Assembly (NCBI RefSeq): GCF_004331915.1
Contig: NZ_CP036528.1
Span: forward strand, 1,869,145 to 1,933,144
Direction of reading: 5' to 3'
Length of the DNA: 64,000 bases
DNA from: Ureibacillus thermophilus
Lineage (GTDB): Bacteria > Bacillota > Bacilli > Bacillales_A > Planococcaceae
The notes under the pieces are model-generated. The model did no database searches and was not told the origin of the DNA. It saw only the letters and a program-made list of their open reading frames with translations. A program made the position numbers and the translations under genes. The number at the start of each line of letters is the position of its first letter. Position 1 is the first letter of the stretch. Below are positions 29,470 to 51,191 of this stretch, piece after piece.

Positions 29470-30348
29470 ATGGCGGTTCAAAAAGTTTCCTCTCAAATCT
29501 CGACTGTTTGGATACCATCCAGCATACAAGAAGCGGTTTCGCTAAAAAATCGTCTTGCCCCGGATGCAGCATACGTTTCAGGTGCAACATTGCTTCAACT
29601 TAAATGGCAAGCAGGCGTAGAGATGCCAAAGCATCATATTAGTTTGGAAAAAATTCCTGATTTACGGCAGCTGAACGTAGATAAGGGCCATTTAGAAATT
29701 GGTGCGGGTACGACACTAAGCACATTGCGTAACCATTCTGTGATCAGAACGGTACACCCAATCATTTCGGAAGCTGCAAAAACCATTGCAGCGCCAGCCG
29801 TTCGAAATCGAGGAACAGTAGGCGGCAATGTCATGTGGGGGGAAGGGGATTTAATCCCTTTGTTATTAACCATGGAAGCCCAGTTGACATTCTTTGCAAA
29901 AAATGGCTTTCAAACCGTTGAAATGGCAGATTGGTTAAACAGCTCCGATTTTCGCGATGTATTATTAGTAAAAGTGGCCATTCCTGAAAGAGATTCCTCC
30001 ACCCAATCCTTTTACAGAAAAATTGGCAGAAGGGAAACATTCACGGCAGCAATTGTAACCATTGCCGGTCAAGTGCGGTTTTCCAATAAAGATGGGTTTA
30101 CGGAAGTTCGTCTTGCCATTGGCGGAGGAAGCAATAAACCTTTGAGGCTTGTTAAAATAGAACAATATTTATTGGGAAAATCAGTGGAGAAAATCCATTG
30201 GCCAACTGTTTATCAATGGATTTTAAAGGAATTTCATCCGTCAAGCGATGCATTTGTCTCTAGCGAGTATAAGAAAAAAGTGGCTGCCAATTTAATCATT
30301 TCGGAACTTCGGCGGTTGTTGTTCCTACAAGAGGAGGCATGTGTATGA
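29470..30348 (+). CDS. pucC: Xanthine dehydrogenase, FAD-binding subunit (PucC/CoxM type)
   Basis: 292 residues with the PCMH-type FAD fold: YVSGATLLQLKWQAG, GAGTTLSTLRNH, AAPAVRNRGTVGGNVMWGEGDLIPLLL and a CO dehydrogenase flavoprotein C-terminal domain (AIGGGSNKPLRL). It passes electrons from the 2Fe-2S subunit to NAD+ or another acceptor. ATG 29470 lies about 6 nt behind AAAGGAGGAG. It overlaps pucD through ATGA. It heads an operon of seven genes, pucCDE plus an ABC importer. Confidence 0.9.
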   Translation: MAVQKVSSQISTVWIPSSIQEAVSLKNRLAPDAAYVSGATLLQLKWQAGVEMPKHHISLEKIPDLRQLNVDKGHLEIGAGTTLSTLRNHSVIRTVHPIISEAAKTIAAPAVRNRGTVGGNVMWGEGDLIPLLLTMEAQLTFFAKNGFQTVEMADWLNSSDFRDVLLVKVAIPERDSSTQSFYRKIGRRETFTAAIVTIAGQVRFSNKDGFTEVRLAIGGGSNKPLRLVKIEQYLLGKSVEKIHWPTVYQWILKEFHPSSDAFVSSEYKKKVAANLIISELRRLLFLQEEACV

Positions 30349-32624
30349 AAGGAAACATACAAGAAAAGGAAAAACGCATTCGGCCAGATGGTGTGGAAAA
30401 AGTAACAGGAAAAATAAAATATTTAACAGATTTATCATTTCCAAACATGCTTGTTGGCAAAGTGCTTCGAAGTGAATATCCCCATGCTAAGATTCTTTCC
30501 ATCAACACAGAAAAAGCAAAACAAATTCCTGGTGTTCATGCGGTGATTACCCACGAGGACATACCAGCAATGAATGGATTCGGTTTAGTAACGCCGGACC
30601 AACCGGTATTTTGCGTCGATCGAGTGCGCTATATCGGGGATGCCATTGCGGCAGTGGCAGCTGAAAGTCTTGAAAGTGCCGAAGAAGCATTGCGTTGTAT
30701 TGAAGTAAAATATGAGCCTTTGGAAGTGCTGGATAGCCCAGAAAAAGCATTGCACCCGGATGCAATCAAACTGCACCCACAAGGCAATATTTGCCATAAA
30801 GCTTCCTATAAAAAAGGAAATGTGGAAGAAGCGTTTAAACAATGTACTTACATAATAGAAGAAACTTACGAACTTCCAAGACAAATGCATGGGTTTATTG
30901 AAACTGAAGGAGGCGTTTTTGTTCCAGATGAAGACGGCGGCATCACGGTGTTTGCAGGCACACAGCACGGATTTAAAGACCGCTTTCAACTTTCAAGAAT
31001 TTTAGGAATTCCTGAAACGAAAATTCGGGTGATTTCCAGTCCAATGGGCGGCTCATTTGGCGGAAAGGATGAATTGAATATCCAACCTTATGGCTCACTG
31101 CTTGCCCTTAAAACGGGACGCCCTGTGAAAATTCACAATACAAGAGTGGAATCTGTTCGAGCTGGAATAAAGAGACATCCGATGAAAATTACCATGAAAA
31201 CCGGCGTAGATGCAAATGGCAAGCTCCTAGCGCACAAAGTCAACATCGTGGCGGATAAAGGGGCTTATACGACATTGGGTCCGGCAGTATTAGATTTCGC
31301 CGTTGAACATGCAGCAGGGCCGTATATGATACCAAATATCGACACAGAAGGGGTATTAGTTTTCACCAATAATGGAATGTCTGGAGAGTTTCGTGGATTT
31401 GGCGGCAATCAGGTAACCTTTGCTTTAGAAGGGCAACTGGATCGTTTAGCGGAAAGGCTTCAAATGGATCCTATTGAGTTACGGCGAAAAAATTTAAGAA
31501 AAGAAACGGACTTGGGGCCAGTAGGGCAAATGATCGCTCCAACCGATGGCGCTTCACTTGTATTAGAAGGTGTAAGCAAATTGATGAACACCAACCGAAA
31601 GCAACAGGATGAGCAGCCTTGGATTTTTAAAGGCACAGGAATAGCTATTGGCATGCATGGCGGAGGTCTCGGAAAAGGGCGAATTGACCATGCAGGAGGA
31701 CGGTTGTCATTAGCGAAAGATGGGAAAATTGAAATTTCCTTTGGTTTTGAAGAATGCGGCCAAGGATTAGTGGCAGTGATTGAAAATTTAACGATTTCAG
31801 AGCTTGGATGCGGCAAAGATGATATTCGGATTGTCATCAGCGATACAGATCGGGTGCCGATTTCCGGTTCATCCACTGCTTCACGCAGCACGAATATGGT
31901 TTGGCAATCTTTAAAAAGATTAAAAGAACCATTTATGAAAATGTTATACGAAGAAGCTGCTGAACTGCTGAAATTGCCGGAAGATGAAATGACATTGGGC
32001 GTCGGCGGCATATGGCTTAAAGGTCGATCAGATGGTCCGTGTATCACGTATGAAGAAATGGCGAGAAAATCCGAAAAGGAACTTTCCTATACAACGAATT
32101 TCCATTTCCCTATTACACCAACCCCTGATGCCATACCTGGTGCACATTTTTTATATACCTTTGGCGGCATCAAAGTGGACGTGGAAGTAAATGGATTAAC
32201 AGGCAAAGTGATAGTAACATCCATTGACCATGTAATTTCGGCAGGGCCGGTGGTGAGCCCGAATGGCTACGTTGGGCAAATTGAAGGCGGCGGGGTCATG
32301 TCCCTTGGGTATACATTGCTGGAAGAAGCAAAAATGATTGATGGAAAATATGCATCAGAAAATTTTGATACGTATTTGATGCCAAATATTGTAGATGTAC
32401 CATTCGATACAAATGTTTATGCCATTGAGGAATTGGCTGAAGGAGATGAGTATGGGCCTAGAGGTGTAGGAGAAATTGGAACAATCGCCATTATCCCTGC
32501 TATTGCCAAAGCCGTTCATGATGCAACCGGCCTTTGGATCAATAAACTTCCGATTTCGCCAGAGGAATTGCTAAATCATATGGAACAAAAGGGGATGATT
32601 CCATGGGTATTAAACAAGATGTGA
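30345..32624 (+). CDS. pucD: Xanthine dehydrogenase, molybdenum cofactor-binding subunit (PucD type)
   Basis: 759 residues, the catalytic subunit that hydroxylates hypoxanthine and xanthine to urate. Recognisable blocks are VTGKIKYLTDL near the N-terminus, SPMGGSFGGKDELNIQPYG, GMSGEFRGFGGNQVTFALEGQ (molybdopterin contacts), ISGSSTASRSTNMVW, and GPRGVGEIGTIAIIPA, which carries the catalytic glutamate. ATG 30345 is 7 nt after GAGGAGG; ATG 30339 is too close to it. The 3' end overlaps pucE by 22 bp. Confidence 0.92.
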   Translation: MKGNIQEKEKRIRPDGVEKVTGKIKYLTDLSFPNMLVGKVLRSEYPHAKILSINTEKAKQIPGVHAVITHEDIPAMNGFGLVTPDQPVFCVDRVRYIGDAIAAVAAESLESAEEALRCIEVKYEPLEVLDSPEKALHPDAIKLHPQGNICHKASYKKGNVEEAFKQCTYIIEETYELPRQMHGFIETEGGVFVPDEDGGITVFAGTQHGFKDRFQLSRILGIPETKIRVISSPMGGSFGGKDELNIQPYGSLLALKTGRPVKIHNTRVESVRAGIKRHPMKITMKTGVDANGKLLAHKVNIVADKGAYTTLGPAVLDFAVEHAAGPYMIPNIDTEGVLVFTNNGMSGEFRGFGGNQVTFALEGQLDRLAERLQMDPIELRRKNLRKETDLGPVGQMIAPTDGASLVLEGVSKLMNTNRKQQDEQPWIFKGTGIAIGMHGGGLGKGRIDHAGGRLSLAKDGKIEISFGFEECGQGLVAVIENLTISELGCGKDDIRIVISDTDRVPISGSSTASRSTNMVWQSLKRLKEPFMKMLYEEAAELLKLPEDEMTLGVGGIWLKGRSDGPCITYEEMARKSEKELSYTTNFHFPITPTPDAIPGAHFLYTFGGIKVDVEVNGLTGKVIVTSIDHVISAGPVVSPNGYVGQIEGGGVMSLGYTLLEEAKMIDGKYASENFDTYLMPNIVDVPFDTNVYAIEELAEGDEYGPRGVGEIGTIAIIPAIAKAVHDATGLWINKLPISPEELLNHMEQKGMIPWVLNKM

Positions 32625-33121
32625 AATTAGAAATGTCGGCTTTACATTATGAAAACCTTATGACGTTAAGCGTCCGAATCAACGATGAAAAAGTGGAAGT
32701 CAAAGTGCCGCCGACGCTATCGCTTGCGGTCATTTTAAGAAATTATTTTCAATTGACTGGCACGAAAATTGCTTGCGGCATTGGACGATGCGGCGCTTGC
32801 TCCATTTTGCTGGATGATGAGCTGGTCAATGCTTGCTTGGTGATGGCTTACCAAGCTAATGGTAAAAGCATTACGACCATTGAAGGGCTCAGCAAACTAT
32901 CTTTAGATGAGGTACAGGAAGCCTTTTTAAAACAAGGCGGTTACCAATGCGGATATTGTACACCAGGGATGATTATGGCGGTAAAGGCAATGTTTGATCG
33001 AAACCCACATCCCCAAGAATCGGATATTGAAGAAGCGTTGGCGGGCAATTTATGTCGCTGTACAGGATATGGAGGCATATTACGGGCAGTCAAATATGTT
33101 ATGAATCAAAAACATTATTGA
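32603..33121 (+). CDS. pucE: Xanthine dehydrogenase, 2Fe-2S subunit (PucE type)
   Basis: 172 residues with both iron-sulfur motifs: the plant-ferredoxin-like CGIGRCGACSILLDD with a further cysteine in NACLV, and the four-helix motif QCGYCTPGM...CRCTGYGG. It carries electrons from the molybdenum site to FAD. ATG 32603 follows AAAAGGGGATG. It is slightly longer at the N-terminus than most relatives. The importer ATPase begins 14 bp further on, so uptake and oxidation genes are co-transcribed. Confidence 0.93.
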   Translation: MGIKQDVKLEMSALHYENLMTLSVRINDEKVEVKVPPTLSLAVILRNYFQLTGTKIACGIGRCGACSILLDDELVNACLVMAYQANGKSITTIEGLSKLSLDEVQEAFLKQGGYQCGYCTPGMIMAVKAMFDRNPHPQESDIEEALAGNLCRCTGYGGILRAVKYVMNQKHY

Positions 33122-38791: not shown

Positions 38792-38942
38792 CGAAATCCC
38801 TCCTTTTCTCTTAATGTAACATTCTGAATTTTTTTGAAATATAGTTAAACTGACTAAAAATATTGGGCACATTTGACAATTGCACCGATGCAATTTGTAT
38901 GAAAATTATTTACAATAGGTGCAAATATAGGAGGAGTTGTAC

Positions 38943-40073
38943 ATGAACGAGATTTATAGGAATGAAAAAGTGGAAATGGCCCCTTTAAAAGAAGGGCGAT
39001 TGTCAGGATATACCTTTGCGGTGAAGGATGTATTTGCCGTGGAAGGAGAAAAAAACAGCGCAGGAAATCCAGATTGGCTGGTTACTCATGAGGCGAATAC
39101 ATTCACGGCGCCGGTAATCGAGCACCTGCTCTTGAATGGAGCAACTTTAAAAGGGCTGACCCATACAGATGAGCTGATGTATAGCTTAAATGGTGAAAAC
39201 ATTCATTATGGCACGCCGCCAAATCTGCTTCATCCGGACCATATTCCAGGGGGATCATCGAGCGGTTCTGCCAGTGCGGCGGCGGAGAGGGATTTTACCC
39301 TTGGCACAGATACTGGCGGTTCTGTTCGTGTACCGTCCAGCTACTGTGGTCTATATGGCATCCGACCAACCCATAATGCTATTTCGATGAAAGGTGTCAT
39401 ACCCCTTGCCCCAAGTTTTGATACGGTCGGCTGGATGTCCAAATCGAGCCGCATATTGAAAGAAGTGGGAGATGTTTTGTTGCATGATGAAATCATTGAG
39501 TTTACAAACATCACCATTGATCTGCAAGGTTGGAATTTTTTGCAGCCAGAGGACCGGCATTATTTAGAGGCGGCAATAAACAAATTAGAGGTTGAAACTA
39601 AGGAAATAACAGGGCCATTGGAAGAGTGGGCGACCTTATTTCGAACAATACAAGGAATTGAAATTTGGAAAGTCCATGGGGAATGGATTCGTTCTGTAAA
39701 ACCAACTTTTGCACCGTCCATAGAAAAACGTTTTCAATGGGCAAGTACACTGGATGCAGGTATGTATGATGAGTTGAAGTTAAAGCAATTGGCTATTCAA
39801 GAGTATTTGCAAAAACAAATAGGAGAGAAGGGCTTGCTTGTCATTCCAACAACTCCTTCCATAGCTCCTAAGAAAAAGGCAACATCTGAAGAAGTGGAAG
39901 ACGTTCGTACCAAAACGATGCAGCTTACCTGCATTGCAGGGTTGAGCGGTTTTCCGCAAGTGACCGTTCCTATTATGCGGGCAGATGGATTAGCGCTAGG
40001 ATTATCCTTTATCGCGACAAGGGGACGGGACCGTGCTTTGCTTCATTTTGTAGATCAATATTTTGGAAGCTAG
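38943..40073 (+). CDS. Amidase-signature hydrolase in the purine island
   Basis: 376 residues of the amidase-signature family. The catalytic Lys lies in TFAVKDVF, the cis-serine in GGSSSGSASAAA and the nucleophile in DTGGSVRVPSSYCG. It has no GatA-like long C-terminus, being shorter than GatA (about 485). ATG 38943 is behind TAGGAGG. A gamma-glutamyltransferase-family gene follows 69 bp downstream. In Klebsiella hpx clusters an amidase (HpxX) and a GGT-family oxamate hydrolase (HpxW) are also found together; that parallel suggests a role on oxalurate or a related ureido acid. This is inference; the substrate cannot be read from sequence. Confidence 0.85.
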   Translation: MNEIYRNEKVEMAPLKEGRLSGYTFAVKDVFAVEGEKNSAGNPDWLVTHEANTFTAPVIEHLLLNGATLKGLTHTDELMYSLNGENIHYGTPPNLLHPDHIPGGSSSGSASAAAERDFTLGTDTGGSVRVPSSYCGLYGIRPTHNAISMKGVIPLAPSFDTVGWMSKSSRILKEVGDVLLHDEIIEFTNITIDLQGWNFLQPEDRHYLEAAINKLEVETKEITGPLEEWATLFRTIQGIEIWKVHGEWIRSVKPTFAPSIEKRFQWASTLDAGMYDELKLKQLAIQEYLQKQIGEKGLLVIPTTPSIAPKKKATSEEVEDVRTKTMQLTCIAGLSGFPQVTVPIMRADGLALGLSFIATRGRDRALLHFVDQYFGS

Positions 40074-40142: not shown

Positions 40143-41774
40143 ATGCAGTATCGTGCAACAACAATGGGGGTTAATGGTATGGTGACAACCCCTCATTATT
40201 TAGCTTCACAAGCAGCATTAAAAGTTTTACATAATGGGGGAAATGCAGTCGAAGCAACGATTGCGGCCGCTTCGGTTCTTGCCGTCGTCTATCCGCATAT
40301 GAACAGCATTGGCGGGGATAATTTTTGGTTGATTTATAATGCGAAAACTAAGGAAGTCAAAGCATTAAACAGCAGCGGCCGTGCCGGGGAAAAGGCGACC
40401 ATTGATTTTTATAAACAACAAGGTTTCGATAAAATTCCAGCCCGTGGAGCCCTTTCTGCCAATACCGTTCCAGGAGCGGTAGCCGGGTGGGGAGAAGTGC
40501 ACCTGTATGCGGAAAAGGAAATGGGTAATGGATTGACTTGGCAAGAGTTGCTGGAGCCGGCGATTGGTTATGCGAGGGACGGCTATCCCGTTACAGAAAG
40601 CCAACATTATTGGACAACTGTGAATTTAGAAGAAGATGCAGAGTTTCGTGGTTTACATCGTTTTGATGAGTTTGCCCGCATCTTTTTGCACAACGGAAAA
40701 GTCCCGAAAGTCGGTTCCATTTTCAAACAGCCGGATTTAGCGGATACGTTGGTCTATATTGCTGAAAATGGAGCAAAAAGTTTTTATGAAGGCGAGATTG
40801 CCGAAAAAATCGTGAAAGATTTGGAACGGTTGGGAGGCATCTTAACAATCGATGATTTTAAAGCTCATAAAAGCGACTGGGTCGAACCGCTTTCCGTTGA
40901 TTACCGCGGATATAAGGCGTATAATTTGCCGCCGAATACCCAAGGATTTGCGAGCCTGTCCATTTTAAATATATTAAACCATCTAAATCTTCAAGAAATT
41001 GAAGAAGGTTCGCCGGAATATTATCACATCTTAGTGGAAGCGGTGAAACTTGCCTTTATGGATCGGGACCAATATTTAACAGACCCGGAATTTGTCGAAA
41101 TTCCTCTCGATGATTTATTAAGCCCGGAACATGGCAAAGAGCTGGCGAATCAATTAAAACAAAACCTTCAGGCAAGAAAGTTGCAGCCCCTTGATGCAAA
41201 GGGCGATACGGTATGGTTTGGCGTTGTGGATAGAGAAGGGAATGCGGTTTCCTGCATACAAAGCATTTATCATGAATTTGGCTCAGCCATTATTCCTCGG
41301 GGCACTGGCGTGGTTTTACAAAATCGGGGCAGCTTTTTCTCATTGGATGAAAATCATGTCAATTGTTTAGCGCCGAGAAAACGTACATTGCATACGTTGA
41401 ATCCTGCCATGCTCTTAAAAAATGGCCGTCCCGTTCTTGTATACGGAACGATGGGTGGGGAAGGGCAGCCGCAAACACAGGCGATGCTTGTAACCCGCAT
41501 TATTGATTATGGAATGAACGTGCAGGAAGCTATTGAAGCCCCTCGTTTTCTATACGGTCGCACATGGGGAGCCTCATCAAATACATTAAAACTGGAAGGA
41601 CGCATTCCTCCAACGGTTCAATCTAAGCTTCGAGAGTGGGGACATGAAATTGAGGTACTTCCAGACTTCACAGATACGATGGGGCATGCCGGGGCAATTT
41701 GGATTGACCAAGAAACAAATGTAAAATTTGGCGGTGCTGATCCTCGTGGAGATGGGGCTGCAATCGGTTATTAA
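40143..41774 (+). CDS. Gamma-glutamyltransferase-family amidohydrolase (possible oxamate hydrolase)
   Basis: 543 residues, an Ntn-hydrolase of the GGT family. It begins directly with TTPHYLASQAALKVLHNGGNAVEA and has no signal peptide, so it is cytosolic, unlike classical secreted GGT. Self-cleavage should occur before Thr356 in KGDTVWFGVVDREGNAVS; the usual TTHF is changed to DTVWF. GGEGQPQTQAMLVTRIIDYG and a C-terminal GHAGAIWID block are present. The cytosolic form and purine context resemble HpxW, the oxamate amidohydrolase of Klebsiella purine breakdown. ATG 40143 follows GAAGGGGG. A glutathione- or poly-glutamate-directed role is the alternative. Confidence 0.82.
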   Translation: MQYRATTMGVNGMVTTPHYLASQAALKVLHNGGNAVEATIAAASVLAVVYPHMNSIGGDNFWLIYNAKTKEVKALNSSGRAGEKATIDFYKQQGFDKIPARGALSANTVPGAVAGWGEVHLYAEKEMGNGLTWQELLEPAIGYARDGYPVTESQHYWTTVNLEEDAEFRGLHRFDEFARIFLHNGKVPKVGSIFKQPDLADTLVYIAENGAKSFYEGEIAEKIVKDLERLGGILTIDDFKAHKSDWVEPLSVDYRGYKAYNLPPNTQGFASLSILNILNHLNLQEIEEGSPEYYHILVEAVKLAFMDRDQYLTDPEFVEIPLDDLLSPEHGKELANQLKQNLQARKLQPLDAKGDTVWFGVVDREGNAVSCIQSIYHEFGSAIIPRGTGVVLQNRGSFFSLDENHVNCLAPRKRTLHTLNPAMLLKNGRPVLVYGTMGGEGQPQTQAMLVTRIIDYGMNVQEAIEAPRFLYGRTWGASSNTLKLEGRIPPTVQSKLREWGHEIEVLPDFTDTMGHAGAIWIDQETNVKFGGADPRGDGAAIGY

Positions 41775-42995: not shown

Positions 42996-44420
42996 CTAGG
43001 CAACGGGAGTGGAGGAGGATGGTAAATCTGCTATAAATTCTTCCTCTTGATATTCATAGAATTCTTTTAAAATAAATGCTTTGTCTTCTACAAACAATTC
43101 ATCTGCAATGCCTTTCACTAGTTTTGGAATGGCAAAACGGATGCCGGATAAAGCGGAAGCAGAAAGGCCGCAGCTCACTAATGCCGAATAGTTGAAGGCG
43201 AAAATGCCGCGCACTCGGTTTTGGCCATCTTTATCCAAAGGGACAAATTCGAATTCTGGAGTTAAATAAGGATGGCGGTCGACTAATGGATTGCGGATTT
43301 CATCAGGGGCCTTGATGACATCTCCCCATGTGGCAATTGACTTGTGAATCAGGCGCAGTTCAGGGCGTAAACTTGGATCTGAAATAAGACCGGTGCTAAT
43401 AATTAAAAAATCGTATTCGTATTCATCGTGAGGGGTTACGACTTTAACGCCATTTATTGTCGGTTCAACGGAAAGCCATGGGGAATCTGTAAAGAGTGCA
43501 AAACCAGGGAAGCTTGCCGCACGCTGGAAAGTATCATTCGTCGGAGGTTGATTGTATTTAAAGAAATGGGAGATGACAGCGTATTTTTCAATATCGGATA
43601 ATGTATGGAAGCGTTCGATGATGCCTGAATGTTCCAGGTGGCGAATCGGATTGATTCTTTGCATTTGTTTGCGGCGAATAAACACATGCGCTGCTTTCGC
43701 CCCATGCAATAGAGCATAGTTGGCATTGTCAAAGGCTGACGCACCGCCGCCTAAAATTCCAATCCGTTTTCCTTTCAACTGCTGAAAATCGATTTGTTCA
43801 GACGTGTGGGCATATAAATGTTTTGGCAATTCTTTGATAAATGCTGGCACATGCCATTCTCCACCGCCTTGTATGCCTGTGGCCAATACCACTTTTCTTG
43901 CGAGTATAACCTTTTGTTCACCTTTTTCGATAACATGGAGTTTATGGTATCCTTCATCAGTCGGTTCAATAAGGTCCAGTTTCACTTCATTTTTTACGGG
44001 AATCTTCAGCACGTTTCTATACCATTTTAAATACTCCATCCAATCGGTGCGGGGAATTTTATCAAGCTTCTCCCAAGCTTCGGCACCATTTTTTGCGATA
44101 TACCATGATTTGAACGTTAGAGAGGGCACTCCTAAGTCAATGGAAGGAAGTTCTTTTGGGGTGCGGAGTGTATACATGCGGGCGTAAGTAATCCAAGGGC
44201 CTTCAAAGCCTTCCGGATTTTCATCGATGACAAGGAAATTCGTAATCCGCTCCCGCATTAAACCGAAAGCAGTTCCTAACCCGCTTTGACCCCCGCCCAC
44301 AATGACCACATCGTAAACATGCCCTTCCTTAGTCAATTTTGGCTTTACCCATTCTTTTTTGCTGAGTGAAATGGAGGATAAATCGGACAGTACTTGTTTA
44401 TTTAGCTGTAGTAAACTCAT
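42996..44420 (-). CDS. FAD/NAD(P)H-dependent monooxygenase, candidate urate hydroxylase
   Basis: 474 residues with two dinucleotide-binding folds: FAD motif VVIVGGGQSGLG (GGGQSG at 42-47) and NAD(P)H motif GILGGGASAFDNA (224-229), with the VVLATGIQ motif between them. The layout is that of flavin-containing monooxygenases and N-hydroxylases, not of HpxO-type aromatic hydroxylases. It is the third catabolic gene of a minus-strand group after OHCU decarboxylase and HIU hydrolase. No cofactor-free uricase is in the window, so this protein is the best candidate to convert urate to 5-hydroxyisourate. A flavoprotein urate hydroxylase unrelated to HpxO (HpyO) has been described; I cannot tell by eye whether this is its orthologue. 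ATG 44420 follows AAAGGAGATG. Confidence 0.8.
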   Translation of the reverse strand: MSLLQLNKQVLSDLSSISLSKKEWVKPKLTKEGHVYDVVIVGGGQSGLGTAFGLMRERITNFLVIDENPEGFEGPWITYARMYTLRTPKELPSIDLGVPSLTFKSWYIAKNGAEAWEKLDKIPRTDWMEYLKWYRNVLKIPVKNEVKLDLIEPTDEGYHKLHVIEKGEQKVILARKVVLATGIQGGGEWHVPAFIKELPKHLYAHTSEQIDFQQLKGKRIGILGGGASAFDNANYALLHGAKAAHVFIRRKQMQRINPIRHLEHSGIIERFHTLSDIEKYAVISHFFKYNQPPTNDTFQRAASFPGFALFTDSPWLSVEPTINGVKVVTPHDEYEYDFLIISTGLISDPSLRPELRLIHKSIATWGDVIKAPDEIRNPLVDRHPYLTPEFEFVPLDKDGQNRVRGIFAFNYSALVSCGLSASALSGIRFAIPKLVKGIADELFVEDKAFILKEFYEYQEEEFIADLPSSSTPVA

Positions 44421-44539
44421 TGGCTACATCTCCTTTATGCAGAATTGTTTAAATTGCATATTATCACGAATTTTCAGAAAAACATTTAGATAATATGACT
44501 AATAATGTTGCAAGTATTGTAGAGGTTTAACAAAGGGTG

Positions 44540-44896
44540 CTAACTGCCGCGGTAAACTTGATAACCCCATGGAGAAACGAGCAGTGGGACGTGGTAATGG
44601 CCGCCGCATTCTTCCATCGTAAATTGCACTGGAACAGTAGTTAGGAAAGGGGGATTAGCAAGGGGAGTCTGCAAAGATTGAAAATAGTCGGCAATATAAA
44701 AGACTAGTTGATAAGTAGTAGGCTGCCAATCATCCTCTGCGATCAGTTTTTCATCGGTGCGCCCGTCCGCATTGGTTGTGACGGTTTTGACAAGCTTCCA
44801 TTCTTTTTCTTCCGTTCTGCAATAAAGCTCAATTTTTACATTTTGCGCAGGTTTACCATGAACTAAATCCAATACATGGGTAGAAAGTGAAGGCAT
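44540..44896 (-). CDS. pucM: 5-hydroxyisourate hydrolase
   Basis: 118 residues of the transthyretin-like family; opens 5-hydroxyisourate to OHCU. It has the N-terminal LSTHVLDLVHGKPA with catalytic histidine, an arginine in the NADGRTDE loop, HYHVPLLVSPWGYQVYRGS at the end with the diagnostic YRGS tetrapeptide. ATG 44896 follows AAAGAAAGGATG. It lies 21 bp after the OHCU decarboxylase gene and 119 bp before the flavoprotein. Confidence 0.95.
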   Translation of the reverse strand: MPSLSTHVLDLVHGKPAQNVKIELYCRTEEKEWKLVKTVTTNADGRTDEKLIAEDDWQPTTYQLVFYIADYFQSLQTPLANPPFLTTVPVQFTMEECGGHYHVPLLVSPWGYQVYRGS

Positions 44897-44917: not shown

Positions 44918-45418
44918 TTAATCTGATGCAGCAATCTGGTTAAAACGGTTCCGTGCAATTTTATAGATTTCATTTAGGGCTGTGTGGAATTCGACAGTTT
45001 TGTTGTTTTGAAGCCTCGATTCCATAGCTTTCATAATAGACTGTTTATCAAGACCCGCAACGAAAATGATAAAAGGAAACTGGAATTTTTCTTTATATTG
45101 TTTGTTTAGTTTCGTCATCGTTTCGAATTCTTCAGAAGTGAGCGAATGAAGGCCGGCAGAAGCTTGCTCCTTTTGGGAATAATTGCTCATGGAGATGCGG
45201 CTAGCAAGCTCTGGATGTTTTAAAATTAACTTCTCTTTTTCTTCTTCACTAGCCTTTTCCACAATATTGCGCATTGCTTCAAAAGCGCTCTCCATGGATG
45301 GAAAAGGCCTTAATTGAGCCGCTTTTTCCGCAATCCATGGAGAATCTTCAAAGATTCCACCAAATACTTCTACAAATTGTTCTTCCGTGAATTGATTAAT
45401 GTCTTGTAATGTGGCCAT
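44918..45418 (-). CDS. uraD: 2-oxo-4-hydroxy-4-carboxy-5-ureidoimidazoline (OHCU) decarboxylase
   Basis: 166 residues, all alpha. The conserved histidine is in LILKHPELA; the SQKEQASAGL and FPFIIFVAGLD blocks complete the active site that gives S-allantoin. In B. subtilis this domain is fused to uricase in PucL; here it stands alone. ATG 45418 is behind GGGAGG, and the longer frame to 45463 reads through that site. It is the first catabolic gene downstream of pucR on the minus strand. Confidence 0.92.
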   Translation of the reverse strand: MATLQDINQFTEEQFVEVFGGIFEDSPWIAEKAAQLRPFPSMESAFEAMRNIVEKASEEEKEKLILKHPELASRISMSNYSQKEQASAGLHSLTSEEFETMTKLNKQYKEKFQFPFIIFVAGLDKQSIMKAMESRLQNNKTVEFHTALNEIYKIARNRFNQIAASD

Positions 45419-45561: not shown

Positions 45562-47172
45562 CTATTGCTCTAAAATGAGATGATTGCGGATGCGCAAAGC
45601 TAGGCGAAGTTGGATGGTTACTTCCGGATCTTTCAAATCTTTTTGGAGAAGTGCGCTACATTTTTCCAACCGGTAAATCACCGTATTGCGATGGACAAAA
45701 AGCTTTTTCGCTGTCTCAGAAATTTGGCAATGATTTTCTAAATACTCATACAACGTTTCAAATAAGATTTGCTGTTCTTCCATCGGCAAAGCAAGCAATG
45801 GTTTAAAAATCATTTGTTGGTAGTTCCTTAAATCATTTTCTGGAATCATTTGAAGCAGCTCGTCTATTTCTTTAATGGTATAGAAGGATATAAGCGGGGA
45901 TTGAGGGCTGATAAAATGTACGGCACTTTGGGCTTCTTTCATAGCCCGGTGGATGTCGAAAAAGTTTGGAATCATATTGCTGGCTCCAAATGATATTGTT
46001 TGGTGGAAATATTGCTTAATGGACATGGAAAGTTCTTTAAATAACTCAGTGATGAATAATTTAAAATCCATTTCGGGATATTGCAGTTCATATAAAAAGA
46101 CAAGGTCGTTTTTCACTGTAAAAATGTGCATATGAATCCAAGGGCTTTGCAGCGATTCCTCGCAAAAACTATGAATTTGGTCCAGCAATTGCTGCATTTG
46201 ATAAGGATGCAAGTTGCCGATATGTCTTAGCCGCCCAACGATGCAGACATACGCCTGAAGTAACGGAATATGAAGTTCTTCCGCTTTGCTTTTAATCGTA
46301 TCATTGGTGATTTGCGGAATCTCCAGCAAGTCTGAAAATTGCTGATTGCGGATTTTTCGCTTTTGCTGCTGCAAGGCTTTTTCCTGCAAGATGGCAAAAG
46401 ACAGTACATTAATAGCCTGTTCAATTAATAAACGCAGCTGTGTATCGTTTGGTTCAACCATGCCTTCAATCAATAAAAAATGCTTTCCAGAATTAATGTT
46501 GATGGGGAAAAAAGAGTAGGTACTCCGATTGTCTAGCAATGAAAAGTGCCAAGAAGAAGTTGAAAAAATCGGGATTTCGAAATGGTGCTCCATCATTTTT
46601 TGGATGGATGCTAAGGCTTGAATGTATTGTTGAGATGAGTGGTAGGGGCGCAAATACGAATTGATTAAGTAGACTTCCCGTTTGATGAGGGAGGACAAAT
46701 GTTTCACTAACTGGTTGATTCCTTGCCCTTTAAAAATAATATCCGTAAATTGGCGATGGGCATTCATTGCATAGGTCAATAAGGCAGCCTCGCTATGCAA
46801 AATAAACTGAGTGACAATCAAGTTAATCTCACCGAGGGATAAATGTTCCGGCAATTCAATAAAAGGCACTTCCAGCTCATCTGCCAGTTCCAAAATATCT
46901 TTCGGAAATTCGTAAAGAAACCGATTTTTTTTAATGCCGATACCCGCACATTCCTTTTTCGCCATTTCGATAATCAATTCTTTAAAATAAGCTAAGTTAT
47001 TTTTTAAATGGTAGGCAGTCGTAATGATAAATTGGTCTGGATTTAAATATGGGATTATATCTGGAGCATCCATCATGGTGATGGTGCGGATTTGTCGATG
47101 TTTCGCCCTTTTGCCGGCAACAATCTTAATAGGCTGTAATTCTTTTTGATTTAATAATTGGGCAATGTCCAT
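45562..47172 (-). CDS. pucR: PucR-family transcriptional regulator of purine catabolism
   Basis: 536 residues. The N-terminal PucR domain (residues 1-125) has the typical DAPDIIPYLNPDQFIITTAYHL segment. A central GGDEF-like/CdaR region follows. The C-terminal PucR-type helix-turn-helix (about 480-535) reads CQISETAKKLFVHRNTVIYRL. ATG 47172 is 9 nt after GAAGGAG; the six-codon extension overlaps that site. It is divergent from pucF, with a candidate operator at 47209-47227 in between. It probably senses a pathway intermediate such as allantoin, as in B. subtilis. Confidence 0.92.
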   Translation of the reverse strand: MDIAQLLNQKELQPIKIVAGKRAKHRQIRTITMMDAPDIIPYLNPDQFIITTAYHLKNNLAYFKELIIEMAKKECAGIGIKKNRFLYEFPKDILELADELEVPFIELPEHLSLGEINLIVTQFILHSEAALLTYAMNAHRQFTDIIFKGQGINQLVKHLSSLIKREVYLINSYLRPYHSSQQYIQALASIQKMMEHHFEIPIFSTSSWHFSLLDNRSTYSFFPININSGKHFLLIEGMVEPNDTQLRLLIEQAINVLSFAILQEKALQQQKRKIRNQQFSDLLEIPQITNDTIKSKAEELHIPLLQAYVCIVGRLRHIGNLHPYQMQQLLDQIHSFCEESLQSPWIHMHIFTVKNDLVFLYELQYPEMDFKLFITELFKELSMSIKQYFHQTISFGASNMIPNFFDIHRAMKEAQSAVHFISPQSPLISFYTIKEIDELLQMIPENDLRNYQQMIFKPLLALPMEEQQILFETLYEYLENHCQISETAKKLFVHRNTVIYRLEKCSALLQKDLKDPEVTIQLRLALRIRNHLILEQ

Positions 47173-47208
47173 GGCATCACGCTCCTTCATTCAACTAAAA
47201 AAATACTT

Positions 47209-47227: not shown

Positions 47228-47360
47228 AGAAAAGAAGATTCGCCAAGAGTGATTGTGCAAATTATCTAAAAATTTATGCTTTTTTAGCAGTTCTACCAGT
47301 GATGATGGTGAAATCATTCTTTAAAATTTGAGCTAATCAACCATGAAAGGTGGAAAAAAC

Positions 47361-48616
47361 ATGATACATGAACAACTTTCTTCCATCCACTTAGAACATG
47401 AATGGACCATCGAATCATTGATTGAGTGGTTAGCTCAATTTGGGAAAACCGAAGAAGGCGGCGTTACCCGTTTACTATATAGCAATGTGTGGCAAAAGGC
47501 GCAGCAAGCCTTGCAGCAAAAAATGGCCCTTGCTGGATTGACCGCTTATTGTGATTCTGTAGGAAATTTGTTTGGGCGAATCACAGGCACTGAAAAACCG
47601 AATGAAGTAATTTTAACCGGTTCGCATATTGATACGGTTGTGCAAGGAGGAAAATATGACGGGGCATACGGAGTGTTAGCAAGCTTGTTGGCAGTGCAAA
47701 GGCTCCTTTCCACCTATGGGCCTCCCAAAAAAACGTTGGAAGTAGTTTCCCTTTGCGAAGAAGAAGGCAGCCGTTTTCCGCTGACTTTTTGGGGGTCTAA
47801 AAATATTGTGGGGGAATATGATTTGTCGGATATTGAAGGCGTAAGGGATGCAGATGATATTTTATTTCAAGATGCAATGAGAGAAGCCGGTTTTCCTTTA
47901 GAAAATTATCAATCCTTGAAACGTTCTGATATCGTCCATTTTGTGGAGGTACATATTGAGCAAGGTCCGATATTGGAAAAAAAAAACAACAAGTTGGCAT
48001 CGTGACGCATATCGTTGGGCAGCAGCGCTACATGATTACCTTTTTTGGCCAGACGAATCATGCGGGCACTACGGAGATGGCTGGCAGAAGCGATGCAATG
48101 GTAAGCGCCGCCAATGCCATTACGAGGTTGACTTCTTTGGCGAGTGAAAAATATGCTCCGGATTTGCGGGCAACGGTCGGCATGATAAAGGCTAAACCAA
48201 ATGTTTCCAATGCCATTGCAGGAGAGGTATGTTTTACGATTGATATACGCCATCATGACCAGACAGTCATCGATCAATTTGTAAAGGAAATGCACCGTAT
48301 TTTGAAGGATATCGATAAAAAATGGAACGTCACCCATCAAACGGAACTTTTTGCTATGGATGAACCGGTGCCGTTGGATAAAAAAATGCAAAAAGTGGCA
48401 ATGCAGCTGGCGAAGAAACGCAAGTTGAAGGCCATTGAAATGGTAAGCGGGGCAGGGCATGATTCCCAAGTATTTGCCAAGCATGTCCCCACAACTCTTC
48501 TTTTTGTTCCTAGCCGCAACGGAATCAGCCATTCGCCATTGGAATTTACTGAAGCGAAGGAACTAGAGAATGGGGTCCGTTTATTGCAGGACATTTTATA
48601 CTATTTAGCATATTGA
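47361..48616 (+). pseudogene. pucF: Allantoate amidohydrolase, interrupted by a poly-A frameshift
   Basis: The two parts (47361-48005 and from about 47987 onward in the next frame to 48616) make one complete M20-family zinc amidase of about 418 residues. Zinc and active-site blocks are TGSHIDTVVQGGKYDGAYG, CEEEGSRFP, VEVHIEQGP in part 1, and GQTNHAGTTEMAGR and MVSGAGHDSQVFA in part 2. The break is a run of ten A at 47977-47986; eleven A would read EKKKQQVGIV and restore the frame. As it stands, part 1 ends a few codons later. All catalytic residues are intact, so the lesion is recent, a sequencing error, or a slippage site. It releases ammonia from allantoate. ATG 47361 follows AAAGGTGG. Confidence 0.88.
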
Positions 48617-48631
48617 AAGGGCGTGTAATCC

Positions 48632-49888
48632 ATGAAAATGAAACCTTTGCAAGTCCCAAAACGCACTATTATGACGCCTGGGCCGGTGGAGGTGGACCCT
48701 CGTGTTTTGCAGGCAATGAGCACCCCTATTTTAGGGCAATTTGATCCTTGTTTTACAGATATTATGAATGAAGTGATGGAAATGCTGAGGGAATTGTTCC
48801 AAACGAAAAATCATTGGGCATTCCCCATTGATGGTTCTTCCCGTTCCGGCATTGAAGCCTTGCTTTGCAGCGTCATAGAACCAGGGGATAAAGTGCTTAT
48901 TCCCATTTTTGGACGGTTCGGCCATTTGCTTGTTGAAATTTGTGAACGTTACGGAGCCGATGTATATACGATGGAATGTCCATGGGGCGAAGTGTTTGAC
49001 CAGCAGAAAATCATTGCCAAAGTAAAGGAAGTAAAGCCGAAAATCGTTGCCATTGTACATGGCGAAACCTCTACAGGATGTATGCAGCCGCTCAATGAAC
49101 TGGGGCCTGCATGCCGCGAATTAGATGTACTATTAATTGTCGATGTGGTGGCATCCATTGGAGGGGCCAATGTAATGGTGGATGAATGGTGTTTAGATGG
49201 AGTGATTGGCGGCACGCAAAAATGTTTATCTGTTCCATCGGGCATGGCACCGATTACTTATAATGACCGCATCGAAAAAATTATTTTATCCCGAAAAAAA
49301 GTCGAAGCGGGCATTGCAACGGCAGAGGATATAGCATTGGGAAACAAGAAGAACCGTATCCATAGCAACTACTTCGATTTGGCCATGCTGCAAGATTATT
49401 GGAGTCCGAGAAGATTAAACCATCATACGGAAGCAACATCGATGCTTTACGCACTGAGGGAAGGGCTTCGACTTGTATTAGAAGAGGGTTTATATGAACG
49501 ATTCGGCCGCCACCAATACCACGAAAAGGCGCTTATAGCAGGGTTGAAAGCGATGGGGCTTGAAATATTTGGCGATGAACATCATAAACTTCCGACGGTC
49601 ACTTGCGTCAAAATACCTCTTGGAATCGATGGAGATTGGGTGCGGCAAATGATGCTTGAGCAGTTTGGCGTTGAAATCGCTTCTTCTTTCGGGCCTTTAC
49701 ATGGTAAAATTTGGCGTATCGGAACGATGGGTTACAGCTGCCGAAAAGAAAATATATTATCCGTATTATCTGCACTGGAAGCTTGTCTAATACGTGCGGG
49801 GGCAACTATACATCGGGGTGAAGGATTGCAGGCAGCCCTTGATTATTATGAAGCCCCGATTGCGGCAAAGGAGAATGCCAATGTTTGA
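48632..49888 (+). CDS. pucG: (S)-ureidoglycine-glyoxylate aminotransferase
   Basis: 418 residues, a class V PLP aminotransferase matching PucG in length and blocks: MTPGPVEVDPRVLQAMSTPILGQFDP, FPIDGSSRSGIEALL, GETSTGCMQPL, VDVVASIGG, GTQKCLSVPSGMAP with the cofactor lysine. PucG moves the amino group of ureidoglycine to glyoxylate, giving glycine and oxalurate. It lies 15 bp after pucF and overlaps pucH by 8 bp. Glycine produced here could be used by the gcv system in the same window. Confidence 0.93.
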   Translation: MKMKPLQVPKRTIMTPGPVEVDPRVLQAMSTPILGQFDPCFTDIMNEVMEMLRELFQTKNHWAFPIDGSSRSGIEALLCSVIEPGDKVLIPIFGRFGHLLVEICERYGADVYTMECPWGEVFDQQKIIAKVKEVKPKIVAIVHGETSTGCMQPLNELGPACRELDVLLIVDVVASIGGANVMVDEWCLDGVIGGTQKCLSVPSGMAPITYNDRIEKIILSRKKVEAGIATAEDIALGNKKNRIHSNYFDLAMLQDYWSPRRLNHHTEATSMLYALREGLRLVLEEGLYERFGRHQYHEKALIAGLKAMGLEIFGDEHHKLPTVTCVKIPLGIDGDWVRQMMLEQFGVEIASSFGPLHGKIWRIGTMGYSCRKENILSVLSALEACLIRAGATIHRGEGLQAALDYYEAPIAAKENANV

Positions 49889-51191
49889 TTTGTTAGTGAA
49901 AAACGGAAAACTTGTTTGTGAGAAGGAAGTTATTTTGGCCGACTTAGCTGTAAAGGATGGGGCCATTTGTGCGATTGGCAAAAATTTAGGGGAAGCTGTC
50001 CAAACAATCGATGCTCAAGGAAATTTGATTTTCCCGGGCGGAATTGATGTGCATGTGCATTTCAATGAACCCGGAAACGAAGAATGGGAAGGATTTGAGA
50101 CTGGTTCCCGCTTACTTGCAGCAGGCGGCATTACCCGTTATTTTGAAATGCCGCTAAACAGCAATCCCCCGACTATTGATGTTGGAGCCCTTCGTTTAAA
50201 GAAAGAGCTAGCAAAGGAAAAGAGCATTATTCCTCCTTACTTTTGGGGAGGCCTTGTCCCGGGAAATGTCCAGCAGTTGGCAGCTCTTGCGAAAGAAGGG
50301 GTTGTTGGATTTAAAGCGTTTTTATCCAATTCCGGCTTTGAACCTTTTCCGTCAGTGGAAAAGGAAACATTGCTTGAAGGTATGCGTGAAATTGCCCGCC
50401 TCGGAAAAATTTTAGCATTGCATGCGGAAAGCAATGAATTAACGGATTTTATGCAGCGGGAAAAACGGAAGAAAGGAAAAACAACGCCTCAAGATTATGC
50501 GGAGTCGCGTCCTATTATAGCTGAAGTGGAAGCGGTCCATCGTGCGCTCTATTTTGCAGAGTTGACAGGATGTTCCCTACATTTTGTTCATATTTCTAGC
50601 GCTAAAGCAGTGGAATTGATTCAAGAGGCAAAATCACGCGGAATGGATGTGACGGTTGAAACATGCCCCCATTATGTATGGTTTAATGATGAAGCATTGA
50701 ACGAGCGCGGAGTACTAGCAAAATGTGCGCCTCCTTTACGGCCGGAAAAGGAGCGCAAACAATTGTTGGATTGTCTCTTGAATGGCCAAATCGACATGGT
50801 TGCATCCGACCATTCCCCATGTCCCCCTTGGATGAAAGACTTAAAGAATCAGAATTTCTTTGAAGCATGGGGAGGTATCAACGGTGGACAATTTACACTT
50901 CTTGCCTTGTTGACATTATGCGACCAACATCAAGTTTCCTATGTCAATGTAGCCAAGTGGCTGAGTGCTAATCCAGCAAAACGTTTTCAACATGAAAGGG
51001 TAGGCCGTTTAGAAGTCGGGTGTGATGCGGATTTCACCATTGTGGCAAAAAAGCCGTTTACAGTGACACAGGAAAATCATTTTGCGAAACATAAAGCGAC
51101 CGTTTATGAAGGTGAAACATTTCACCATACGATTGTTGCAACCTATTGCAAAGGGCGATGTGTTTATGAGGAAAGTGGGCATCCTATTTAA
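49881..51191 (+). CDS. pucH: Allantoinase
   Basis: 436 residues of the amidohydrolase superfamily; opens allantoin to allantoate. Metal-binding blocks are GGIDVHVHFNEPG, GFKAFLSN with the carbamylated lysine, ALHAESNE, HFVHISSAKAVE, ETCPHY and ASDHSPCPPWMK. These and the length separate it from dihydroorotase and hydantoinase. ATG 49881 follows AAAGGAG inside the end of pucG. It closes the pucFGH operon. Confidence 0.94.
   Translation: MFDLLVKNGKLVCEKEVILADLAVKDGAICAIGKNLGEAVQTIDAQGNLIFPGGIDVHVHFNEPGNEEWEGFETGSRLLAAGGITRYFEMPLNSNPPTIDVGALRLKKELAKEKSIIPPYFWGGLVPGNVQQLAALAKEGVVGFKAFLSNSGFEPFPSVEKETLLEGMREIARLGKILALHAESNELTDFMQREKRKKGKTTPQDYAESRPIIAEVEAVHRALYFAELTGCSLHFVHISSAKAVELIQEAKSRGMDVTVETCPHYVWFNDEALNERGVLAKCAPPLRPEKERKQLLDCLLNGQIDMVASDHSPCPPWMKDLKNQNFFEAWGGINGGQFTLLALLTLCDQHQVSYVNVAKWLSANPAKRFQHERVGRLEVGCDADFTIVAKKPFTVTQENHFAKHKATVYEGETFHHTIVATYCKGRCVYEESGHPI

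Follow-up and report, generated by a model that had tools for sequence, protein, structure and literature searches.

A flavin monooxygenase in a purine gene island

The window, the whole 64,000-nucleotide stretch of Ureibacillus thermophilus DNA analysed here, carries an island of purine catabolism genes with the following features.

29470-30348, 30339-32624 and 32603-33121, + strand: three xanthine dehydrogenase subunit genes (open reading frames, ORFs)
38937-40073, + strand: amidase (profile scans)
40143-41774, + strand: gamma-glutamyltranspeptidase-family gene (profile scans)
42996..44420, - strand: probable HpyO-type urate 5-hydroxylase, a flavin monooxygenase (FMO) of 474 aa (ORF and motifs)
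44421..44539, - strand: spacer of 119 bases separating uraH from the FMO gene; an AAAGGAG stretch resembling a ribosome-binding site precedes the FMO ATG (sequence reading)
44540..44896, - strand: uraH/pucM, 5-hydroxyisourate hydrolase (TIGR02962, 124.8 bits, cut-off 87.45; PF00576)
44918..45418, - strand: uraD, OHCU decarboxylase, free-standing, without uricase fusion (TIGR03164, 174.2 bits, cut-off 96.25; PF09349)
45562..47190, - strand: PucR-type purine catabolism regulator (PF07905 and PF13556)
47343..48616, + strand: pucF-like allantoate amidohydrolase gene, split (M20 peptidase family; the pucF name is drawn from the neighbourhood)
48632..49888, + strand: pucG-like aminotransferase, ureidoglycine-glyoxylate type (PF00266; best NCBIfam match BhcA, 184 of 650 bits; putative function, drawn from the neighbourhood)
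49794..51191, + strand: allB, allantoinase (TIGR03178, 538.5 bits, cut-off 357.85)

The PucR-type regulator, uraD, uraH and FMO genes follow one another on the minus strand, and the pucF-like, pucG-like and allB genes face away from the regulator. The FMO reading frame opens with ATG and is 474 residues long; its motifs GGGQSG and GGGASA span residues 42-47 and 224-229, respectively. The protein, both motifs and the position downstream of uraD and uraH are as the original prediction described. That prediction also spoke of a complete purine pathway, which holds for uraH, uraD and allantoinase and falters at the pucF-like gene, formed by two overlapping frames (47343-48005 and 48002-48616, each scanned separately) broken at a run of A. 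A sequencing error, a slippery site or genuine loss could each account for the split. The true start of allB is probably inside the ORF as called. A promoter and terminator scan returned fewer sites than it did in shuffled sequence.

The molybdenum and iron-sulphur subunit ORFs of the window match annotated xanthine dehydrogenase genes at L016, a locus with a divergent FMO relative. The same stretch encodes a transporter with a Bmp/PnrA-type binding protein, plus a deaminase. The amidase and gamma-glutamyltranspeptidase-family gene probably serve the oxalurate/oxamate end of the pathway, the oxamate role being one that we presume from known biochemistry. Among the best 80 of 587 FMO loci, a gamma-glutamyltranspeptidase-type gene is found in 21 and an amidase in 15; both occur with FMO in Bacillota and Sphingomonadaceae loci L013, L014, L027, L041, L048 and L063, the last of these although no uraD or uraH is nearby. 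Two half-size chromate transporter family genes (PF02417; 41728-42905, + strand) point towards FMO within the island.

Family and conserved residues

FMO matches the Pfam families Pyr_redox_3, NAD_binding_9, Lys_Orn_oxgnase, Pyr_redox_2 and DAO, a set that is, on profile matches, the pattern of a two-dinucleotide-fold monooxygenase. FAD_binding_3, which we take to be the family of HpxO, is absent from these matches, and an HpxO fold is therefore not indicated, in line with the original prediction. The NCBIfam scan agrees: zero models exceed their cut-offs, the best being ArsO (NF040505, 52.3 bits against a cut-off of 425), and the HpxO model NF033623 is not among the matches. NCBIfam likewise names none of four scanned relatives, one each from Xanthomonas, Paenibacillus, Priestia and Agrobacterium.

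The nearest solved structures by sequence are the small flavin monooxygenases 4c5o, 4a9w and 4usr (40-42 bits with the FMO family profile), and our statement on fold is based on these matches and on Pfam. ArsO and the small monooxygenases have FAD and NAD(P) domains in common with FMO, but they are shorter (357-361 residues), have other functions and score no higher than ~42 bits with the family profile. Five residues are invariant in 44 aligned FMO rows (G42, G44, G47, G224 and R249) and two are nearly so (G226 and R250); the arginine pair R249/R250, following the second dinucleotide fold, suggests use of NADPH. Residues particular to the urate-linked group include I183, Q184, N295 and G405; the comparison comprises four outside rows only, and we do not assign these positions to a urate pocket.

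The urate step in the host genome

The host genome is a single contig of 3,017,325 bases, rated 100% complete. Searches of all of it gave no match to cofactor-free uricase (PF01014; B. subtilis and Haloferax volcanii controls positive), so that the lack of this enzyme noted for the island extends to the genome, and none to PuuD (PF06181; Caulobacter control positive). The best HpxO score (NF033623) is 25.7 bits against a cut-off of 500; since 0 of 14 control genomes exceed this cut-off, the HpxO negative has weaker controls than those for uricase and PuuD.

Uox/PucL, the cofactor-free uricase, fills the same pathway slot as FMO, ahead of UraH and UraD, but has an unrelated fold and is absent here. 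PuuD, a cytochrome c urate oxidase, acts at the same step but is a membrane protein, also absent. HpxO, the FAD-dependent urate hydroxylase of Klebsiella, presumably has reaction and cofactors in common with FMO while belonging to a different flavoprotein family.

Gene neighbourhood of homologues

Eight genomes of the host's order have a full-length FMO (L001-L008), and all eight place uraD and uraH inside ~1.5 kb on each side. For a wider view we read 80 loci in named genomes, the best 80 of 587 confirmed candidates, which lean to Bacillota. In this set uraH is present at 17/17 Pseudomonadota and 16/63 Bacillota loci, and 32 of those 33 also have uraD. The other 47 loci, mainly from Paenibacillus and Cohnella, have neither gene nearby. 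By position, then, homologues mostly lie outside purine clusters (47 of the best 80 of 587), an outcome that the original prediction had set against itself. In meaning the result differs: uraD occurs elsewhere in 40 of the 45 genomes searched (all but those of L053 and L066), leaving five without it.

In a whole-genome search of 48 FMO-bearing genomes (L088, L041, L030 and L048 left out), 43 proved to have uraD, three belonging to Pseudomonadota, and 8 to have uricase. The 30 best uraD loci were read, comprising 22 uricase-free Bacillota, 3 Pseudomonadota and 5 with uricase. In all 22 uricase-free Bacillota loci uraH is at most 350 bases from uraD, with FMO elsewhere in the genome, and 19 of them also carry allB. 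The five loci with uricase have uraH ~1 kb from uraD, with uricase in between.

FMO also matched 335 plasmid records, eight of which were opened. The Priestia filamentosa plasmid (L012, CP136440.1, 26439-30121) carries a nucleobase symporter, uraD, uraH and FMO in a row, a compact arrangement that suggests a transferable urate-use module. A Tn3-family transposase gene is located ~4 kb from this row. In plasmids of Novosphingobium, Sphingobium and Niveispirillum the order is uraD-FMO-uraH. An annotated plasmid copy of FMO is labelled just 'NAD(P)/FAD-dependent oxidoreductase'. A nucleotide search of plasmids with the uraD-uraH-FMO stretch returned only 2 records.

Co-occurrence with uraD and uricase across Bacilli

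We surveyed 398 Bacilli genomes, scoring at most four FMO candidates in each; the uraD, FMO and uricase counts are taken to concern the same genomes, as handles and numbers agree. There are 48 genomes with uraD, 32 with full-length FMO and 31 with uricase. Every uraD-bearing genome has at least one of the two candidate enzymes (17 FMO only, 16 uricase only, 15 both, 0 neither), and none of the 350 uraD-free genomes has uricase or full-length FMO. This partition strongly supports the original proposal of a candidate urate hydroxylase. Where FMO and uricase coexist, FMO is redundant or otherwise employed.

The association of FMO with uraD has a Fisher p of 1.4e-35 per genome, kinship ignored. 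Because the genomes share ancestry, with one family (f3) contributing heavily, this value overstates independence. The per-genus count is fairer: of 146 genera 20 have uraD, and these include 8/8 FMO genera (p 3e-8). Weak partial matches in G346, G377, G379, G425 and G581 (E 2e-11 to 3e-14, 25-34% identity, approximately residues 24-251) were not counted as FMO; all five genomes are without uraD. An additional weak match in G500 was also ignored.

In a separate survey of 200 genomes of the order, 10 have uraD: 8 with full-length FMO, one with a broken FMO (G065) and one with uricase (G118). A sub-cut-off uricase match with internal stops in G089 (21.2 bits) was not counted. G065, from the host's family, holds broken FMO pieces only (L009-L011) and a weak uraD (71 bits); its pathway looks as if it were decaying. 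In a 2.2 Mb Bacilli genome, a uraD match (G261:C14:30766-31233) lies within a 1147-residue open frame adjoining uricase, which is either an unusual fusion or merely a long open frame.

Relation to HpyO

Michiel et al. reportedly described HpyO in 2012 as a flavoprotein urate hydroxylase of Xanthomonas. We found an FMO homologue in 31/35 genomes of this genus, 30 of them full-length (52-54% identity over residues 1-472 or 1-473, one per genome) and one in two pieces; it is missing from the other 4. All 20 Xanthomonas loci read have the order uraD-FMO-uraH. In the Xanthomonas dyei genome neither uricase nor PuuD was found, and HpxO scores 119.7 of 500 bits at most. By elimination, and from its position between uraD and uraH, we infer that the Xanthomonas protein is HpyO. 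The U. thermophilus FMO is, on sequence, probably an orthologue or close co-member of Xanthomonas HpyO, the identity being reached through the Xanthomonas locus homologues.

The two share several features: HpyO is a flavoprotein not homologous to HpxO, the Xanthomonas relatives sit between uraD and uraH, and the U. thermophilus genome is devoid of the other urate oxidases sought. They differ in host phylum (Bacillota), in gene order (uraD-uraH-FMO in the window instead of uraD-FMO-uraH) and in linkage, as FMO is unlinked to uraD/uraH in the Paenibacillus loci fetched from the best 80 of 587. In our tree, a single starred branch of 91 rows unites Bacillota with Sphingomonadaceae and Xanthomonas and excludes the relatives in other contexts. 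A Niveispirillum protein with uraD and uraH adjoining (L015, 45% identity) falls outside this main group, at a position for which the rooting is unsure; the tree is of a quick kind with long outgroup branches, and we draw no fine conclusions from it. The HpyO kind is thus known already; its spread through Bacillota, where the gene often lies apart from the pathway genes, looks new.

Exceptions and divergent relatives

The five of 48 FMO-bearing genomes without uraD are also without uricase (L077, L078, L079, L081 and L085), and all are Paenibacillus on one branch of the tree. An EamA-family exporter gene is next after FMO in L078 and L079, the two scanned; L081 and L085 have an ORF of the same size at this position, and L077 has two shorter ORFs. 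As a tentative and rather doubtful suggestion, FMO in these P. alvei-type Paenibacillus, paired with an EamA-type exporter, might hydroxylate urate or a related compound for redox, signalling or an export product, while close relatives serve purine catabolism. These genomes, like the 15 of 398 that have both enzymes, show that the FMO family has more than one use, but they leave the main reading standing.

Half of the eight plasmid loci opened (L016-L019) hold more distant relatives, from rhizobia and Lichenicola and 37-42% identical; uraD and uraH are missing from their surroundings, and L016 adjoins xanthine dehydrogenase-family genes. L018 is a locus of Agrobacterium fabrum C58, whose growth on urate is abolished by deleting the puuD gene Atu2314, according to PMC4562309. 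The distant relative at L018 does not, therefore, replace urate oxidase in that strain. Relatives seem to stop acting on urate somewhere between 45% and 37% identity.

Proposed reaction and alternatives

We consider it very probable that FMO is an FAD-containing, class-B-like monooxygenase of the HpyO type that would catalyse NAD(P)H-dependent C5 hydroxylation of urate to 5-hydroxyisourate, feeding UraH and UraD. This reading builds on direct observations of gene order, nucleotide-binding motifs, uricase and PuuD absence, a sub-cut-off HpxO score, co-occurrence with uraD and a neighbourhood maintained across two phyla. The substrate, cofactor and chemistry are proposed by analogy with HpxO and HpyO, as treated in PMC4562309. 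The FAD of FMO would be reduced by NAD(P)H, probably NADPH, and the reduced flavin would react with O2 to give a C4a-(hydro)peroxyflavin. This species would hydroxylate urate at C5, yielding 5-hydroxyisourate with water, not H2O2, as the other product. The unstable 5-hydroxyisourate would then be converted to allantoin via UraH and UraD, encoded just upstream of FMO, and allantoin would be degraded by AllB and later enzymes.

FMO could instead act on another purine or urate-derived compound of the pathway, leaving the first step to an unrecognised enzyme. The wider family is indeed varied, with the four relatives at 37-42% identity away from uraD/uraH, and FMO coexists with uricase in 15/398 genomes. 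We nevertheless judge this very unlikely, given that 0/48 uraD genomes are without both uricase and FMO, that in Sphingomonadaceae and Xanthomonas FMO is flanked by uraD and uraH, and that the host genome has no known alternative (uricase, PuuD or HpxO above cut-off). FMO might also sit in the cluster by chance and have a role of another kind (ArsO-like, N-hydroxylating or Baeyer-Villiger, for instance). This would fit the general nature of the best curated matches (Pyr_redox_3, and ArsO at 52.3 of 425 bits). We regard such a coincidence as scarcely credible: the linkage seen in two phyla and the co-occurrence with uraD go far beyond chance.

A further alternative keeps the urate reaction and alters the ancestry: FMO would form a separate urate hydroxylase lineage, a new Bacillales class with an independent origin inside the same flavoprotein superfamily. 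Its case draws on the link to the characterised HpyO being inferred and not made by direct alignment, and on the Niveispirillum protein beside uraD/uraH lying outside the main tree group. Set against it are the Xanthomonas homologues, alike from end to end (52-54%) in 30/35 genomes, one in each, with uraD-FMO-uraH at 20/20 loci, and the joining of Bacillota with Sphingomonadaceae and Xanthomonas rows on the starred 91-row branch; a separate origin is accordingly very unlikely. The original prediction had left the choice between a relative of HpyO and a new class in Bacillales: full-length Xanthomonas orthologues between uraD and uraH favour the former, and the latter lacks support. We therefore retain the HpyO-type hydroxylase as the preferred reading.

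Distribution and significance

The survey in PMC4562309 assigns HpxO and HpyO to a limited number of bacteria and describes uricase as prevalent in monoderms. Our literature search, with subscription journals mostly outside its coverage, found no description of HpyO in Bacillota, and in PMC5270733, PMC10117892, PMC5138847 and PMC9067508 the name appears in reference lists only. An annotated FAD-dependent urate hydroxylase is invoked in two reports on the Bacillus cereus group (PMC10460076, PMC12029181); we could not link it to the FMO family. Ordinary PucL uricases are recorded in a Bacillaceae species in PMC11332149.

Among the Bacilli sampled, the HpyO type and uricase are nearly equal in frequency (32 versus 31 of 398 genomes). 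With no NCBIfam name and, on an annotated plasmid copy, a generic oxidoreductase label, the HpyO type makes the urate step look missing in many Bacilli. If it works like HpxO and HpyO, FMO would be a soluble urate-degrading enzyme that forms no H2O2, of relevance to the search for uric-acid-lowering enzymes. Judged by their gene content, many other Bacilli appear to use an HpyO-type FMO for the urate step.
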